Shown piece after piece: positions 11,258 to 29,147 of a stretch of DNA of 33,908 nt. The translations under genes and the position numbers were made by a program. Position 1 is the first letter of the stretch. Every line of letters begins with the position of its first letter. The notes below the pieces were generated by a model. It saw nothing but the letters and a program-made list of their open reading frames with translations. It was not told where the DNA came from and made no database searches. The stretch is from a virus: positions 1-33,908 of IMG/VR virus record IMGVR_UViG_3300047312_000118, one strand, 5' to 3'.

Positions 11258-12109
11258 ATGATCGGCGACCTGACAACCCTGGCCAATGTGAACGCGTGGT
11301 GCAACTACACGACCACTAACGTGGACCGTGACAAGATCACCACGCGCACGATCAGCCAGGTTAGTCAGGTCGTCCGCTCCTATCTTCGCCGGCAGTCGCT
11401 CCTGCTGACGAGCTACGCCGAGACCTACGACGGCAACAACGTGGACACCATGCTGCTGAGGCAGTGGCCCGTGTCCTCGGTGAGCGCGCTGGCGATCGGT
11501 GCTCAGTCCATCGTGCCCGGAACGTATGGTCTCAACGGCACGCCCTCTCAGATGGGGTACTTCTTCGACCAGTGGGACGGTCAGCCGCCGGGAAGAATGA
11601 GCCGGCTGTCGCTTCTCGGTTACGCGTTCTGCCAGGGCACCAGCAACGTCAGCGTTACCTACAGGGCCGGCTACGCCATCTTCAACGAGGCGCAGACCGT
11701 GCCGGGAACGCCCTACCAGATCACGCCGGCGGCGCCGCTCGGGAGCTGGGCGGCCGACAACGGCGTCACCTACGCCGGCACGGGCGTGGCGCTGCAGGCG
11801 ATCGCCAGCGGAACGCCGAGCCTCGGGCAGTACGTTCCGCCGCAGCCCTACGCCAGCTCCGTAGTTCCATACTATCAGTTCTCTGCCGCCGACCAGAACG
11901 CCAACGTGCTGCTGACCTACTCCTTCACGCCCGCGGACCTGGAGCAGGCCATCATTGAGATGATCCAGGAGCGGCTAAGCTACCGGGCGCGGCCAGGCGA
12001 GCGAACTCACTCCACTGGGGGCGTGGTCACGGCCAGCTTCAACATCGTGGACCTCACGCCGTGGATCAAGCTCGTTCTTGAGCCCTACCGGCGGAAGGTG
12101 CCCGTCTGA
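11258..12109 (+). CDS. Head-tail connector, gp6-like, with inserted beta module
   Basis: A 283-residue protein starting at ATG 11258, just after the previous stop. Residues 1-140 look like gp6-type adaptors that bind beneath the portal ('ITTRTISQVSQVVRSYLRR', 'DTMLLRQWPVSSVSALAI', 'VSVTYRAGYA'), and the family's C-terminal helix resumes at 224 ('TPADLEQAIIEMIQERLSYR'). Typical gp6 proteins are about 100 residues. Here residues about 147-223 form an insertion that ends 'YQFSAADQNANVLLTYSF'. A closely similar segment is found inside the tail tube protein at 13417-13617. An open frame extends upstream but has no coding character there. Confidence 0.8.
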   Translation: MIGDLTTLANVNAWCNYTTTNVDRDKITTRTISQVSQVVRSYLRRQSLLLTSYAETYDGNNVDTMLLRQWPVSSVSALAIGAQSIVPGTYGLNGTPSQMGYFFDQWDGQPPGRMSRLSLLGYAFCQGTSNVSVTYRAGYAIFNEAQTVPGTPYQITPAAPLGSWAADNGVTYAGTGVALQAIASGTPSLGQYVPPQPYASSVVPYYQFSAADQNANVLLTYSFTPADLEQAIIEMIQERLSYRARPGERTHSTGGVVTASFNIVDLTPWIKLVLEPYRRKVPV

Positions 12110-12621
12110 TGCTGCAGGTACGGATCATCGGCAAGGAGGAGGTGATAGCCCACATCCTGGGCGCGCCCGAGAGCGTGCGCTCGGCCCTCGTGACGATGAT
12201 GTACCGGCTCGTTCTACTCGTGCAGCGCAACGTGGTGGAGGGTCATCTCTCGGGGCCGACCGGCGAGCATTCGCTCTCCGTCGGCACGCAACCCGGCGAG
12301 CCGCACGGTAAGCTGAGGCGCTCCGTCCAGACCTCGGTGACCAGCGGCGAGACGCTCATCGCCGGCAAGATATTCTACACGGGGGACGTTCCCTACGCGG
12401 CCATTCATGAGTTCGGCGGCGTCATTCATGTTCCGGAGATTGTGCCCAGCAAGGCGCAGGCGCTTCACTTCATGTACGCTGGCAAGGAGATATTCGCGCG
12501 CCGGGTGAGAGCCCACGACGTTCACATGCCGGAGCGTGCGCCGCTGCGCACGGGTTTCGCCGAGATGTTCGACCAGATACAGGCGGGAATGCGTGAAGCC
12601 GTCAGCGAGGGCTGGAAATGA
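12109..12621 (+). CDS. HK97 gp10-like neck/tail protein
   Basis: A 170-residue protein matching HK97 gp10/minor-tail neck proteins: an N-terminal helix, 'DVPYAAIHEFGGVIHVP' (near 88-104), 'PSKAQALHFMYAG' (near 107-119) and 'PERAPLRTGFAEM' near the end. These proteins help join or complete the tail at the neck. The start ATG shares one base with the connector's stop (TGATG), and the gene overlaps the next by 4 nt. Order connector, gp10-like, tail terminator, tail tube is standard. Confidence 0.85.
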   Translation: MLQVRIIGKEEVIAHILGAPESVRSALVTMMYRLVLLVQRNVVEGHLSGPTGEHSLSVGTQPGEPHGKLRRSVQTSVTSGETLIAGKIFYTGDVPYAAIHEFGGVIHVPEIVPSKAQALHFMYAGKEIFARRVRAHDVHMPERAPLRTGFAEMFDQIQAGMREAVSEGWK

Positions 12622-13100
12622 CCCCGGGCCGCGAGAACGTGGCCGCGGCGCTGGCCGCGCTGTTCGCCACGCTGAACTCCGACGGCACGTGGACGGTGAG
12701 CGCTGCTTCCCTCATCGCGGCCGGCTTCAAGACGTTCAACCGCCGCGTCCAGCTCTGGACCAAGGTGGACGCCAACGACAAGCCGGCGCTGTTCCTGGTC
12801 AACTACGACGAGGATCACGACCGCAAGTCCATCATCGGCCCCGACAAGAACACCATGCACTTTGAGCTGGTGATCTACGACGACGTGTCGGACCCGTCCG
12901 TTATTCCATCCCAGCGAATGAACAACTTGCTGGACGCTATTGATACCGTGCTGCTCCAGGCTACCAATCAGCTTGTTGGCAGGGCTACCCTCGGCGGTAT
13001 CGTACATCACGTGTGGGTAGAGGGATCAGCGAAGGTCGCACCGGGCGACCTCGACAACCAGAGCGTGGCGACCTATCCGCTGCGCGTGCTTGTTCCGTAA
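12618..13100 (+). CDS. Tail terminator-like protein
   Basis: A 160-residue protein placed where siphoviruses encode the tail terminator, which caps the tail tube before joining to the head. It has an N-terminal helix ('GRENVAAALAALFATL'), a central strand region 'KPALFLVNYDEDH' and 'HFELVIYDDV', then the helix 'MNNLLDAIDTVL', a layout common in the gpU/gp17-like fold. The family call rests mainly on gene order. ATG overlaps the preceding stop (ATGA). Confidence 0.7.
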   Translation: MTPGRENVAAALAALFATLNSDGTWTVSAASLIAAGFKTFNRRVQLWTKVDANDKPALFLVNYDEDHDRKSIIGPDKNTMHFELVIYDDVSDPSVIPSQRMNNLLDAIDTVLLQATNQLVGRATLGGIVHHVWVEGSAKVAPGDLDNQSVATYPLRVLVP

Positions 13101-13113
13101 GGAGGAACCAATC

Positions 13114-13869
13114 ATGCAGTACAACTTTGGATCGGGCACGGTGGTTGCGACGCGCACCGACGTGGCCAACGCTCAGCCGACCTTCTTCGGCGTGCTCCAG
13201 GACATCGAGCTGGACCTGGATGAGACGCTCAAGGAGCTGAAGGGCCAGTACAAGATGGCCGTGGACGTAGCACCTGCCGACTTCAAGATTACCTTCAAGG
13301 CCAAGTTCGCGAAGATTCAGGCCAACGCGCTTAACAACCTGATGCTCGGCGATACCTACACGGCCGCCGCCGGTTTCAACATGGCAGTGGCTGAGCCGCA
13401 GAACATTCCAGCGACCGGACCCTACACGGTAACCACGAACAACGCGGCTCACTTCACGGCTGATCGCGGCGTCTTCTACGCGAGCAACTACAAGCAGTTC
13501 ACCCCCGTGGCGGCTTCTCCAGCCGTTGCTCAGTACACGGTGAACCCGGCCACTGGCATCTACACCTTCGCCGCGGCGGATGAGGGCGTAGCCGTCCTGA
13601 TCTACTACGACTTCACCGTCACCAACATGAACCAGATCACGGGAACCAACAACCTCATGGGAACGGGGCCAGCCTTCTCGCTCTCCATGATGGAGCAGTA
13701 CACGAACAACGCGGGCGTTACGGGGCAGATGTACGTCAAGCTCAACGCGTGCCGCGCCAGCAAGATCACCCTGCCGATGAAGAACAACGACTACACCGTG
13801 CAGGAGATTGACGGTCAGGCCTTCCCGGACCCGTCGGGGACGTGGGGCTACCTGGCCACCACCGACTAA
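13114..13869 (+). CDS. Major tail tube protein
   Basis: A 251-residue protein that likely stacks as hexamers to form the tail tube. ATG 13114 is chosen for its very strong ribosome site, TAAGGAGG, which overlaps the preceding stop; such a site fits an abundant protein. The tube-like fold appears split: residues 1-98 ('VLQDIELDLDETLKELKGQ', 'DFKITFKAKFAKI') and 170-251, with an inserted beta segment at about 100-168 ending 'YTFAAADEGVAVLIYYDF'. The same kind of module is inserted in the connector at 11705-11926. It lies directly before the tail chaperone genes. Confidence 0.85.
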   Translation: MQYNFGSGTVVATRTDVANAQPTFFGVLQDIELDLDETLKELKGQYKMAVDVAPADFKITFKAKFAKIQANALNNLMLGDTYTAAAGFNMAVAEPQNIPATGPYTVTTNNAAHFTADRGVFYASNYKQFTPVAASPAVAQYTVNPATGIYTFAAADEGVAVLIYYDFTVTNMNQITGTNNLMGTGPAFSLSMMEQYTNNAGVTGQMYVKLNACRASKITLPMKNNDYTVQEIDGQAFPDPSGTWGYLATTD

Positions 13870-17054: not shown

Positions 17055-18143
17055 ATGACCATCAAGATATGGGATGGTCTGGATCACTACAACACGGGCG
17101 CGGACTTTCTCACGCGTTCTGGTTTCCTGCAGTATAATTCCACGGATGCGCTGGCAAATAATGTCACGTTCTCTACGGCCACGCGGAGTGGCAGTGGCAA
17201 GTGCGCAATCGTCTCTAGCGCTGATACACCTGGAAACCTGATCCAGCTGGTCTTCGGGCAGCGGGTAGCCTCAGCCTTCATCGGCTTTGCCGTGAAAATG
17301 CCGCAGGGCGGCAATGGATACGGGTACAGCTTCTGGGACTCGGTAAACTTCAAGAACCAATGCACGGTATGGTTCCGTGGGGACAACTACTCCATTCAAA
17401 TCTATCGTGGGAATGCGCCGCCATGGACTGAGGACGGAACGGTAACGGGGACGCTCCTCTATACGTCCCCCAACAATGCGTGGACGCCAGACACCTGGTT
17501 CTTCCTGGAGCTGTGGGCGACGATTGATCCGAGCGCCGGCGCGGTCAAGGTCTACATTAACAACATACTCACAGCCTCGGTGACTGGAGTCAACACCCAG
17601 GTCTCTACCGCTTCGCAGTGGGACGTGTCTCACTGGCACACGGCGAACTCCAGCATGCAGTTTGATGACTTCTACTATGGCGACACGACGACGGGACCTG
17701 GAACCTATCCTGGCAACGTGCCGCTAGGCGACTGCGGAACGTACACGCTGTTCCCGGTCGGCAACGACGCAGTTCAGTTTACGCCACTGGCGCTGACGAA
17801 CTGGCAGGAGGTCTCTGAGACCGCTATGGACGGCGACACCTCCTACAACTTTGACGACACCGTCGGGCAGGAGGACCTTCTCAACCTGCAGGCGCTTCCC
17901 GCCGGCGTGGTCCTTATCTATGGCGTCCAGGTGACGGGGGCCTATCGGAAGGATGACACTGGAGCGCGCGCCGTCAAGCAGGCGCTCAAATCCGGAGCTA
18001 CGGAGCAGTACGGCGCGTCCTATTCGCTGCCGCAGACGTATGTGTACTACACGGACCCGTGGATACTTGACCCCAACACGAGCGCCAACTGGACCGTCAC
18101 CGCGGTCAATGGCGTGGCGGCGGGCTACAATGTCGCGAGTTGA
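17055..18143 (+). CDS. Tail protein with LamG-like lectin fold
   Basis: A 362-residue protein after the tape measure, with GGGAGG 6 nt before its ATG. Residues about 1-210 resemble a concanavalin/LamG-like jelly roll found in phage tail appendages ('FIGFAVKMP', 'WFFLELWATIDP', 'GAVKVYINN', closing 'MQFDDFYYGD'). The second part (about 228-362) has the partner pattern 'TLFPVGNDAVQFTP', 'NWQEVSETAMDGDTSYNFDDTVGQEDLLNL' (split across 249-278) and 'VQVTGAYRKDD'. It may bind host-surface sugars or build the tail tip. GC content is lower here than in the neighbouring tape measure gene, suggesting module exchange. Confidence 0.7.
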   Translation: MTIKIWDGLDHYNTGADFLTRSGFLQYNSTDALANNVTFSTATRSGSGKCAIVSSADTPGNLIQLVFGQRVASAFIGFAVKMPQGGNGYGYSFWDSVNFKNQCTVWFRGDNYSIQIYRGNAPPWTEDGTVTGTLLYTSPNNAWTPDTWFFLELWATIDPSAGAVKVYINNILTASVTGVNTQVSTASQWDVSHWHTANSSMQFDDFYYGDTTTGPGTYPGNVPLGDCGTYTLFPVGNDAVQFTPLALTNWQEVSETAMDGDTSYNFDDTVGQEDLLNLQALPAGVVLIYGVQVTGAYRKDDTGARAVKQALKSGATEQYGASYSLPQTYVYYTDPWILDPNTSANWTVTAVNGVAAGYNVAS

Positions 18144-18145
18144 TC

Positions 18146-19072
18146 ATGACGCAGGTCCGCTCCTCACAGCTCATCGGAGAGGTCATCTCCACCGGCTCGC
18201 CGGACGTTCGCGTCTCGCAGCTGGTGGGCGAGCCGCTGGTCACCGGCACGCCACGCGTCCGGGTTTCGCAGCTGATTCTCGAGCCTCTCGCCGCCGGCAT
18301 GCCGCGCGTGCGCGCTTCGCAGCTGGTTGGCGAGACGCTCCTAAGAGGAGGACCACGGGCTCGTCCTTCTCAGCTAATGCTGGAGGTCCTGTGCCTGATT
18401 CTGGAGACCAAGATGCTGCCGATCTATCCTGACCTCCCCGGCCTTGGCTTCAACGTCAAGTGGACGCCTACCTTCTTCACCAGCACGGATACCACCGCGG
18501 CCGGCGCTGATATTGACCTCTCGCTCGCCGCGGCCCCCATCCACGTCTTCGAGCTGGTCTACGAGTTCCTGCACGACAGCTGGCGGCCGAACTTCCGGAA
18601 CGGGATGCAGATGACCAACGAGTTCCGCGCGCTGGCCGGGTTCTTCCTGAACCTAGGCGGCTCGGTGGGGCGCTTCGTGTTCAAGTGGGACGTGGACCAT
18701 CGCGTCACGGCGCAGCCGCAGTTCACCACCGACGGCGTCAGCTCGCTGTTCGGCCCCCTGGCCCGTACGTTCGGCGCCAATGGAAACTTCCAGACGGAGG
18801 CCGTGGGCGTGGTGGATACCACCAAGCCCTTCAACCTCTACCTCAATGGCGCGCTCCAGAACCCTTCAACCTACCAGCTCCTGACGGGAACGCCGCTCAA
18901 CCAGCAGATCAAATTCTTGAACACGCCAGTGGCCGATCTCGCTGCTACGACGGACATGGACTACTTCTACTACTGCAAGTTCCAGGACAGCAACAACACG
19001 TTTGAAAAGTTCATGGACCGGCTGCATCTAATATCCAAGATCGCCATCAAGTCCTGCCGACCGGGAGCGTGA
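18146..19072 (+). CDS. DUF2460-type distal tail protein with N-terminal repeats
   Basis: A 308-residue protein. The start is ATG 18146, two bases after the previous stop. Residues 4-83 hold five 17-residue tandem repeats of a 'VRVSQLVGEPL' type. Residues about 90-308 look like DUF2460, the family of Rhodobacter GTA gp12 ('IYPDLPGLGFNVKWTPTF', 'IHVFELVYEFLHD', 'LAGFFLNLGGSVGRFVF', 'FQTEAVG'), which forms the ring at the tail end. It is the first gene of a GTA-like tip cassette. The repeat region is unusual for GTA gp12 and may connect to a fibre or adhesin. Confidence 0.8.
   Translation: MTQVRSSQLIGEVISTGSPDVRVSQLVGEPLVTGTPRVRVSQLILEPLAAGMPRVRASQLVGETLLRGGPRARPSQLMLEVLCLILETKMLPIYPDLPGLGFNVKWTPTFFTSTDTTAAGADIDLSLAAAPIHVFELVYEFLHDSWRPNFRNGMQMTNEFRALAGFFLNLGGSVGRFVFKWDVDHRVTAQPQFTTDGVSSLFGPLARTFGANGNFQTEAVGVVDTTKPFNLYLNGALQNPSTYQLLTGTPLNQQIKFLNTPVADLAATTDMDYFYYCKFQDSNNTFEKFMDRLHLISKIAIKSCRPGA
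18155..18394 (+). repeat. 51-bp tandem coding repeat (17 residues, about 4.7 copies)
   Basis: Within the DUF2460 gene, units of 17 codons repeat: 'VRSSQLIGEVISTGSPD', 'VRVSQLVGEPLVTGTPR', 'VRVSQLILEPLAAGMPR', 'VRASQLVGETLLRGGPR' and a shortened 'ARPSQLMLEVLC'. The core is R-x-S-Q-L with an L or I every few residues, and a Gly/Pro turn ends each unit. This suggests a repeated beta-strand or beta-hairpin structure. Confidence 0.9.
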
Positions 19073-28161: not shown

Positions 28162-28184
28162 CATTTGTGGAAAGGGCTGGGATC

Positions 28185-29147
28185 ATGAAACGGTACATTC
28201 TCACGATTGACGGCGGCGGGATTCGCGGGCTTCTCCCGGCGATGCTGCTGCAGCAGGTGGAGATTCGCCTGAACGCTACGCTTCGCAAGCGGTTCTCCAT
28301 GATCGCCGGGACCTCCACCGGCGGCATCCTGGCCTGCGGGCTCTACGCCGGCGTCTACACCGGCAAGCTCGTTGACCTCTACGACGAGCGCGGGCCGGCG
28401 ATCTTTCAAAGATCGCTCCTTCGTAGCTTCATGACCGGGTTCGGGCTGTGGGCGCCGCGCTACTCGGCCGCCAGCCTGGAGCGGGAGCTGCTCCAGGTTC
28501 TTGGCCCGATGCTGCTGGGAACCCTCAGCCCGACGGAGCTGCTGGTGCCCACCTACTGCGTCCGGCTCCCCACGTGCGAGGACACGGACGGCGACGGGGT
28601 GGTGGAGGGCCGGGCCACGCTGTTCTTCAAGTCATGGGAGGCGCGGACGGACCCGGCGCTGAACTTCATGCTCAGGGACGTGGCCCGCGCCACCAGTGCG
28701 GCGCCAGTCTACTTCCCGGCCGCCGAGATTCGCAACCTCAAGGGCGAGCCCTTCCTCTGCGTGGACGGCGGGACCTACGCCAACAACCCGGCGATGGACG
28801 CCGCGGCGGACGCGCGCCGGCTGTGGCCGGACGACGAGCTGGTGGTGATCAGTCTCGGCACCGGCTCGCTGATCAAGGCCGTGCCGGGTTCCGGGAACTG
28901 GGGCGCCGCGCAGTGGCTCCCCACGATCAGCAACGTCTTCATTGACGGCGCGGCGGACGTGGTCAGCTACCAGATGACCCACGTCGCCAAGCTGGACCCC
29001 CGGGTGACCTTTCTTCGCTGCGAGACGGCGATCACCGGCGCGTCGGAGCAGATGGACGCGACCGGGCCGGCCGACATGGCTCAGCTTCGTCTTCTGGCCG
29101 GGAGGTACGTCAATGCGCACCTCCCGCGGGTGCTGGCCCTGTTCTAG
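28185..29147 (+). CDS. Patatin-like phospholipase
   Basis: A 320-residue putative lipid acyl hydrolase. All key patatin parts are visible: the oxyanion 'DGGGIRG' at 9-15, the nucleophile elbow 'GTSTGG' at 42-47 with Ser44, and the second catalytic residue in 'DGGTYANNP' with Asp194. Length matches small bacterial patatins and CapV-type effectors. ATG 28185 follows AAAGGG by 8 nt. There is no signal peptide or membrane helix, so it should act from the cytoplasm. An odd acidic 'CEDTDGDGVVEG' loop lies at 131-142. It lies just after a strong terminator. No cyclase or sensor gene of a CBASS system accompanies it. Confidence 0.9.
   Translation: MKRYILTIDGGGIRGLLPAMLLQQVEIRLNATLRKRFSMIAGTSTGGILACGLYAGVYTGKLVDLYDERGPAIFQRSLLRSFMTGFGLWAPRYSAASLERELLQVLGPMLLGTLSPTELLVPTYCVRLPTCEDTDGDGVVEGRATLFFKSWEARTDPALNFMLRDVARATSAAPVYFPAAEIRNLKGEPFLCVDGGTYANNPAMDAAADARRLWPDDELVVISLGTGSLIKAVPGSGNWGAAQWLPTISNVFIDGAADVVSYQMTHVAKLDPRVTFLRCETAITGASEQMDATGPADMAQLRLLAGRYVNAHLPRVLALF

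Follow-up and report, generated by a model that had tools for sequence, protein, structure and literature searches.

A predicted beta-sandwich module common to the tail tube and the head-tail connector of environmental phages

Ig-like domains of phages are reportedly promiscuous, as Fraser et al. are said to have described in 2006, and the module considered here resembles them in that Ig-like units occur on several virion proteins, but it has no confident match among the Pfam Ig families. The closest described systems are tail tubes with an outer domain. Domain 2 of the YSD1 tail tube is described as a latch that wraps adjacent subunits (PMC7385642), and the decoration domain of JBD30 (residues 88-175, after a helix at 77-83) is Ig-like and protrudes tangentially (PMC11445458). 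Like domain 2 of YSD1/chi, the domain of JBD30 and D2 of SPR (PMC10981675), the tube module described below would be a beta-sandwich inserted in the tail-tube fold after a peripheral helix, while it differs from those tubes in that sequence searches link it to no solved chain. The available parts of the YSD1, JBD30 and SPR papers do not mention such a domain in an adaptor, and removing outer Ig domains has effects that vary by phage, according to a review.

Beta domains are also known from neck adaptors. Those of RcGTA and phage 812 contact the capsid (PMC7296036, PMC12886913) and that of the R4C adaptor is called Ig-like. The connector studied here shares with gp6/gp15-type adaptors (phrog_442; T5 head completion protein, RcGTA Rcc01688) a plan of helix, attachment domain, helix and hook and belongs to the same sequence family, whereas the T5, RcGTA and Mycofy1 adaptors, with 167-194 aa, are too short for an 80-residue insert. 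In the neck of phage 812 the adaptor beta-sandwich lies at the capsid and an external stopper beta-sandwich is absent from E217 and Pa193 (PMC12886913), which is a likeness in that outer beta-sandwiches on neck proteins are optional, but 812 is a myophage with other proteins and the likeness is structural. Lactococcal 936 phages have carbohydrate-binding modules on proteins of the neck and the distal tail and on the major tail protein (PMC6669499), and so carry one kind of accessory domain at several virion sites, neck included, but theirs are other domains (BppA-like among them), some added by frameshift extension, and binding has been shown for 936. Tail-tube outer domains, adaptors with beta domains and modular phage Ig domains are already known; what is new is the sequence link between tube and adaptor and the comings and goings of the module in the neck. 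A literature search over partial texts, with subscription journals thinly covered, found no recognised report of one domain family in both a tail tube and a head-tail adaptor.

The window, meaning the whole stretch of DNA that was analysed, comprises the 33,908 bases of an environmental virus record. Its genes follow the order terminase, portal, capsid, connector, two neck/tail-completion genes, tail tube, one gene, tape measure, DUF2460 and more tail genes, several of these names being read from the frames. The connector and tube genes are separated by two genes (12109-12621 and 12618-13100), and a scan of the window with the module profile found two copies of the module only:

11258..12109 (+): head-tail connector (adaptor) gene, 283 aa; ATG at 11258, stop at 12109
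11687..11947 (+): module within the connector, residues 144-230 (module profile, E 7e-22)
12109..12621 (+): intervening gene, tail completion/Neck1-like, without the module (phrog_26, E 2e-5)
12618..13100 (+): intervening gene, function unknown, without the module (phrog_8150, E 1e-16)
13114..13869 (+): tail tube gene, 251 aa; ATG at 13114, stop at 13869 (phrog_8234, E 5e-40)
13393..13632 (+): module within the tube, residues 94-173 (module profile, E 3e-32)

The product of 12109..12621 also matches PF05069 at E 0.008, under that family's cut-off. Elsewhere in the window, the N-terminal part of the DUF2460 protein (18140-18400) consists of about five tandem repeats of about 17 residues each (RVSQL..EPL..G.P), as read from the translation, and an ORF beyond the tail genes (28167-29147) reads like a patatin-type lipase (GGGIRG ... 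GTSTGG).

Homology and predicted structure of the two segments

The first-pass annotation of this DNA had claimed a pattern common to connector residues about 150-223 and tube residues about 102-168, and read it as one module in two virion proteins. The matches it quoted are real, its segments stand with slightly wider profile limits (11687-11947 and 13393-13632), and the idea of one module in two proteins is borne out by the homology of connector residues 144-230 and tube residues 94-173, which is confirmed at the level of sequence. BLASTP of the whole proteins gave E 3e-7 and 32% identity over 88 columns, and the two module copies of the window are 35% identical. The Smith-Waterman score of the whole proteins was 101 against shuffled means of 36.6-36.7, above every one of 10,000 shuffles (maxima 77 in 5000 tube shuffles and 70 in 5000 connector shuffles), and that of the segments alone was 93 against a maximum of 69 among 20,000 shuffles. 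The 24 other window proteins, compared with either segment, gave no outlier (top z 2.1). The family of the tube, phrog_8234, also matches connector residues 145-224 (E 0.001), by its module columns alone.

Circularity was avoided by separate profiles, one of tube copies only (163) and one of connector copies only (98). The tube-only profile matched the window connector at E 1.2e-14 and, at E < 1e-5, 120/120 module-bearing connector ORFs and 0/63 of the other connector ORFs, while the connector-only profile matched the window tube at E 1e-17 and 194/194 module-bearing tubes; since the module-bearing sets had been defined with a mixed profile, these counts are not blind. The best shuffled decoys reached E 1.6 (of 3660) and E 0.1 (of 4060), and the best of 386 reversed proteins E 21. 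When the tube and connector module profiles were aligned with each other by hhalign, the probability was 99.8 (E 2e-29, 76 columns), against a probability of 0.1 for each module with the core of the other protein. Some two dozen core positions are common to 112 tube and 79 connector copies, G, Y, F and D of the fold core being the most conserved residues, and F114 is specific to tubes and W164 to connectors. Similar hairpins are common in tail proteins, and the two segments might have come independently by a commonplace phage hairpin motif (G-Y-F ... AAD-G ... Y), a view to which the DUF2460 alignments, breaking where two phages have the module, could be added; but the similarity spans all 76-80 columns, including the linker E..x.P, and together with the profile-profile E value and its control this makes such convergence highly improbable.

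The input to AlphaFold2 was one alignment of 49 tube sequences and another of 24 connector sequences. The tube model has a mean pLDDT of 87.0 (about 95 in the module) and a pTM of 0.65, and the connector model a mean pLDDT of 86.1 (mostly 81-97 by 10-residue block in the module) and a pTM of 0.78. Both modules are thus predicted with high confidence and have their elements and strands in the same order (DSSP), so that the two segments do not appear structurally unrelated; a DE-variant Ig-like topology of two three-stranded sheets would fit both the DSSP order and the superposition of the connector module on the SPR tail tube. The tube model has the tail-tube fold (SPR tail tube 8ygm_A, Z 14.5, 228/241 residues, 3.7 A), with whole-length matches to the YSD1/chi, JBD30 and SPR tubes at Z 13.2-14.5, those to JBD30, YSD1 and chi with a shifted domain (rmsd about 9). 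In this model the peripheral helix 70-78 is followed by the module (94-173) and then by the rest of the core strands, and the position of the module corresponds to those of the JBD30 decoration domain and YSD1 domain 2.

The connector belongs to the head-tail adaptors of phrog_442 (E 4e-16 over residues 4-141); to Pfam Phage_connect_1 the window protein scores E 0.11, under the cut-off, and its relative in locus L044 E 1e-8. The best solved match of its model is 8hqo_P, the T5/DT57C head completion protein (Z 11.3, 166/170 residues), further matches are 9ilp_a (Z 11.1) and 6tba_2A (Z 8.8), and the solved adaptors matched include those of Mycofy1, 812 and RcGTA. Connector residues 139-225 alone align to the insertion domain of the SPR tail tube (89-155; 2.4 A, 65 residues) at Z 6.0, under the tool's caution line of 8; a Z of about 6 is weak by itself and is consistent with the sequence homology beside it. 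The same residues matched domains of several baseplate proteins in the structure search, as well as residues 100-169 of 8qkh_G from the neck of phage 812 (Z 5.7), a chain that we guess to be the stopper.

Sequence searches with each of the two complete proteins found no solved relatives up to E 10, and the module profile met, among solved chains, nothing but interleukin-12 at chance level (E 1.1 and worse). Of 72 module copies compared with Pfam, the best match was DUF11 at E 0.003, far from certain; the Ig-type families Big_2, I-set and FN3 did not appear at E up to 0.1, and the sole Ig-type matches within that limit were one copy to Big_9 (E 0.028) and one copy to Fn3_arc (E 0.072).

Occurrence in connectors, tubes and other virion proteins

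In the connector the module starts after the strand ending AGY (137-139) and stops at the helix starting PADLEQ (P225), and in module-free relatives AGY leads to the same helix directly or via about 20 residues. Judged by these relatives, which lack the module at exactly that site, the connector module is a real insertion. The earlier statement that the module interrupts both folds is accordingly correct for the connector, and in the tube the module is rather an inserted domain common to all complete relatives.

The insertion site is spanned by 179 of 183 connector ORFs, 118 with the module and 61 without, counts that include repeats and similarity-chosen sets. Among distinct connectors, the module is present in 33/87 from loci fetched only by the tube module and in 72/72 from loci fetched by a module-bearing connector query, an alignment of seven connectors that favours module-bearing connectors. 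This query had 481 confirmed relatives in environmental phages, of which the best 80 were taken into the analysis, and on the evidence of such matches connectors with the module are a common feature of environmental phages. In a tree built from 103 connector cores, with the module columns omitted, module presence needs at least 8 changes (bootstrap range 8-9), 6 of them forced by well-supported branches, and these counts do not distinguish gain from loss; gain or loss in the connector is, by this tree, a repeated event.

The connector site can also hold other material. In L044 (3186-4460) a module-free connector has a 233-residue insert at the module site, for which the only Pfam lead was Laminin_G_3 (E 0.11, under the cut-off) and which had no relatives among the other loci gathered; we take the insert, also from a reading of its letters, to look lectin-like. 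In four distinct connectors (L018 3575-4678, L032/L033 2614-3732, L038 3523-4647 and L056 3675-4703) an insert of about 60 residues is nested in the module, following its first linker (E.QTVP) and preceding the strand after it, and a weak relative of it (E 0.009) occurs in the tube ORF L149 4573-5118. An apparent resemblance of the nested insert to a chitin-binding type motif was not borne out by Pfam, where the four that were scanned gave no such match at E up to 1. A further connector relative, L008 2727-3782, has about 120 extra residues elsewhere, ahead of the module site.

In the tail tube the module is constant: all of the 163 complete distinct tubes carry it, a result that rests on loci found by the module or the connector and escapes that bias only for the 59 tubes from connector-query loci, which were not chosen for their tube (59/59 with the module). 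The tube ORFs that lack a module match (9/203) are all short or frame-broken pieces. Two unusual arrangements were seen, a tube protein with two tandem modules (L117 5425-6465) and three adjacent ORFs that each match the tube family with the module (L163 8097-10808).

A search of other phage proteins, as proposed in the first-pass annotation, found the module in hub, DUF2460 distal-tail and tip proteins. Thirteen ORFs outside the connector and tube families carry it, one of which (L151) is a frame-broken tube piece. Eight of the thirteen were scanned with Pfam and PHROGs, and these are four hub proteins (L045, L091, L009 and L006; PF09931), the DUF2460 protein of Brevundimonas phage Polewnik (L001) and three tail-tip proteins (L064, L036 and L114; phrog_1101). 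The remaining four resemble some of these: L002, from phage Strzyga, has the length and place of L001, L092 and L097 are like L091, and L070 has the length and scores of L064. One tip protein has the module twice in tandem. In the Polewnik DUF2460 protein (L001 14015-16465) a long glycine-rich N-terminus (PF12810) and repeats precede the module-bearing DUF2460 part.

The cultured Brevundimonas phages Polewnik and Strzyga, whose host is B. pondensis LVF1, have the module in connector, tube and distal-tail protein, and other cultured or named phages with the module are the Acinetobacter phages 5W, vB_AbaSI_5 and two MD-2021a records, and Pseudomonas phage KT1. Among uncultured phages the module is common, a core-motif scan of them having given at least 600 stretches, 555 of them confirmed among the matches listed. 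The arrangement in the window had been called unusual, which holds in part, the tube copy being a known kind of outer domain and module-bearing connectors being common.

Age and descent of the two copies

The connector and tube copies are less similar to each other than to their own kind, the median relative scores being 0.42 for connector-connector, 0.43 for tube-tube and 0.27 for connector-tube pairs. With near-identical copies excluded, the nearest neighbour of 96/98 connector copies is a connector copy. Modules in the connectors of other phages come closest to the window connector module (relative score 0.62), for which the module of its own tube ranks 95th of 163; in none of the 85 loci with both copies is the nearest tube module that of the same locus, the local tube having a median rank of 83 among 163. 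Since connector modules are nearest those of other connectors, and never chiefly that of their own tube, the copies are, by these scores, old and do not stem from a recent duplication.

On one side of a tree of 136 module copies stand 56 from connectors and 5 others, on the other side 65 from tubes, 6 from connectors and 4 others; with just 82 columns the tree has few firm branches. Starred sets of 4, 8 and 9 rows that consist of connectors only include the window connector. The two window copies lie less than 2 kb apart in one genome, as they would if a recent duplication or gene conversion within the phage had copied the tube module to the connector, but their identity of 35%, the rank of the own tube in the window and in the 85 loci, and the place of the window connector in those all-connector sets leave such an event with very little probability. 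Of the first-pass wording, "mobile or duplicated", the former part is upheld in that the module is an independent unit found also in other virion proteins, and duplication within this phage is not.

The six connector copies on the tube side of the module tree (L016, L117, L018, L032, L038 and L056) suggest independent insertions into connectors, which the one-clade test does not uphold, as connector modules constrained to one clade were not rejected (p 0.897; quick tree, 127 rows, 82 columns). Movement of the module between connector and tube looks old and rare on this evidence. An alternative is that ancestral connectors always had the module and that the short connectors are deletions, with no insertion within the family. 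This would agree with the single clade that was not rejected, with tree counts that cannot separate gain from loss and with the presence of the module in most connectors of one tree half; against it, the solved outside adaptors (T5, RcGTA and Mycofy1; 167-194 aa) are too short, which implies insertion at some time, and the six copies on the tube side would fit extra insertions. It is a serious alternative, but one that we consider somewhat improbable.

A possible outer domain of neck and tail

The reading that is preferred, with a probability of roughly 0.6, is that an Ig-like outer domain was spliced into the adaptor and that it braces or girds the rings of neck and tail from outside. The module would be one Ig-like beta-sandwich, the one that siphophage tail tubes carry on their outside as "domain 2" or decoration domain, and a divergent relative of the tube domain would have been spliced into the adaptor between the capsid-facing attachment domain and the ring-forming helix. 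Each ring of the tube would have six copies outside the DNA channel, where each may latch the neighbouring subunit and gird the ring, as in YSD1. The adaptor copies, twelve if solved adaptors are a guide, would form a peripheral collar under the portal vertex that may brace the ring or its capsid contact and would enlarge the exposed surface of the neck. We infer the copy numbers, the outward position, the bracing and any adhesion, position and bracing by analogy, and likewise the decoration of neck and tail that the first-pass annotation had suggested.

A bracing or covering role is favoured because of the latch of YSD1, the protrusion of JBD30 and the beta domains of RcGTA and 812 at the capsid. 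With a pTM of 0.65 for the tube model, the orientation of the module on the tube is unsure. The copy in the neck comes and goes, which implies that it is not needed for assembly in many phages.

The nested or lectin-like inserts at the connector site hint at surface binding rather than bracing. The module could serve adhesion, with weak binding of host glycans from neck, tube, distal tail, hub and tip raising avidity, as in 936 phages, which give the precedent (PMC6669499). Its presence in hub, DUF2460 distal-tail and tip proteins, the tandem copies in one tip protein and one tube, and the 233-residue insert (Laminin_G_3 at E 0.11, weak) or nested insert at the connector site would all suit this role. 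However, no carbohydrate-binding family was matched by the module (72 copies against Pfam; best DUF11, E 0.003), its most conserved residues belong to the fold core and not to an evident binding patch, and a structural role is ascribed to the YSD1 domain in the corresponding position. Adhesion is possible on this evidence, but we think it unlikely. Also tentative, and to be doubted to a similar degree, is the wider proposal that the adaptor loop between attachment domain and ring helix is an exchange slot, either empty or filled by the module, the module with a nested domain or a lectin-like domain, and that the module along the virion would give many-point host contact, with the neck as a second adhesion collar.

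Whether it would brace, as preferred here, or bind, the module bears on how outer Ig-like domains of phage tails are regarded, which are usually treated protein by protein, as horizontal arrivals. A single sequence family joins the proteins of tail tube, neck adaptor, distal tail, hub and tip. Its presence in the neck varies over the tree and its tube copy is fixed, which offers a natural comparison, between related phages that have the neck copy and those that lack it, for testing the function of such domains. The module profile lets module-bearing forms be found in uncultured phages, and since the cultured phages Polewnik and Strzyga carry the module, the question is open to bench work. Across related phages, many of which have, lack or exchange the neck copy, the virion surface seems to be built in part from one reused part.
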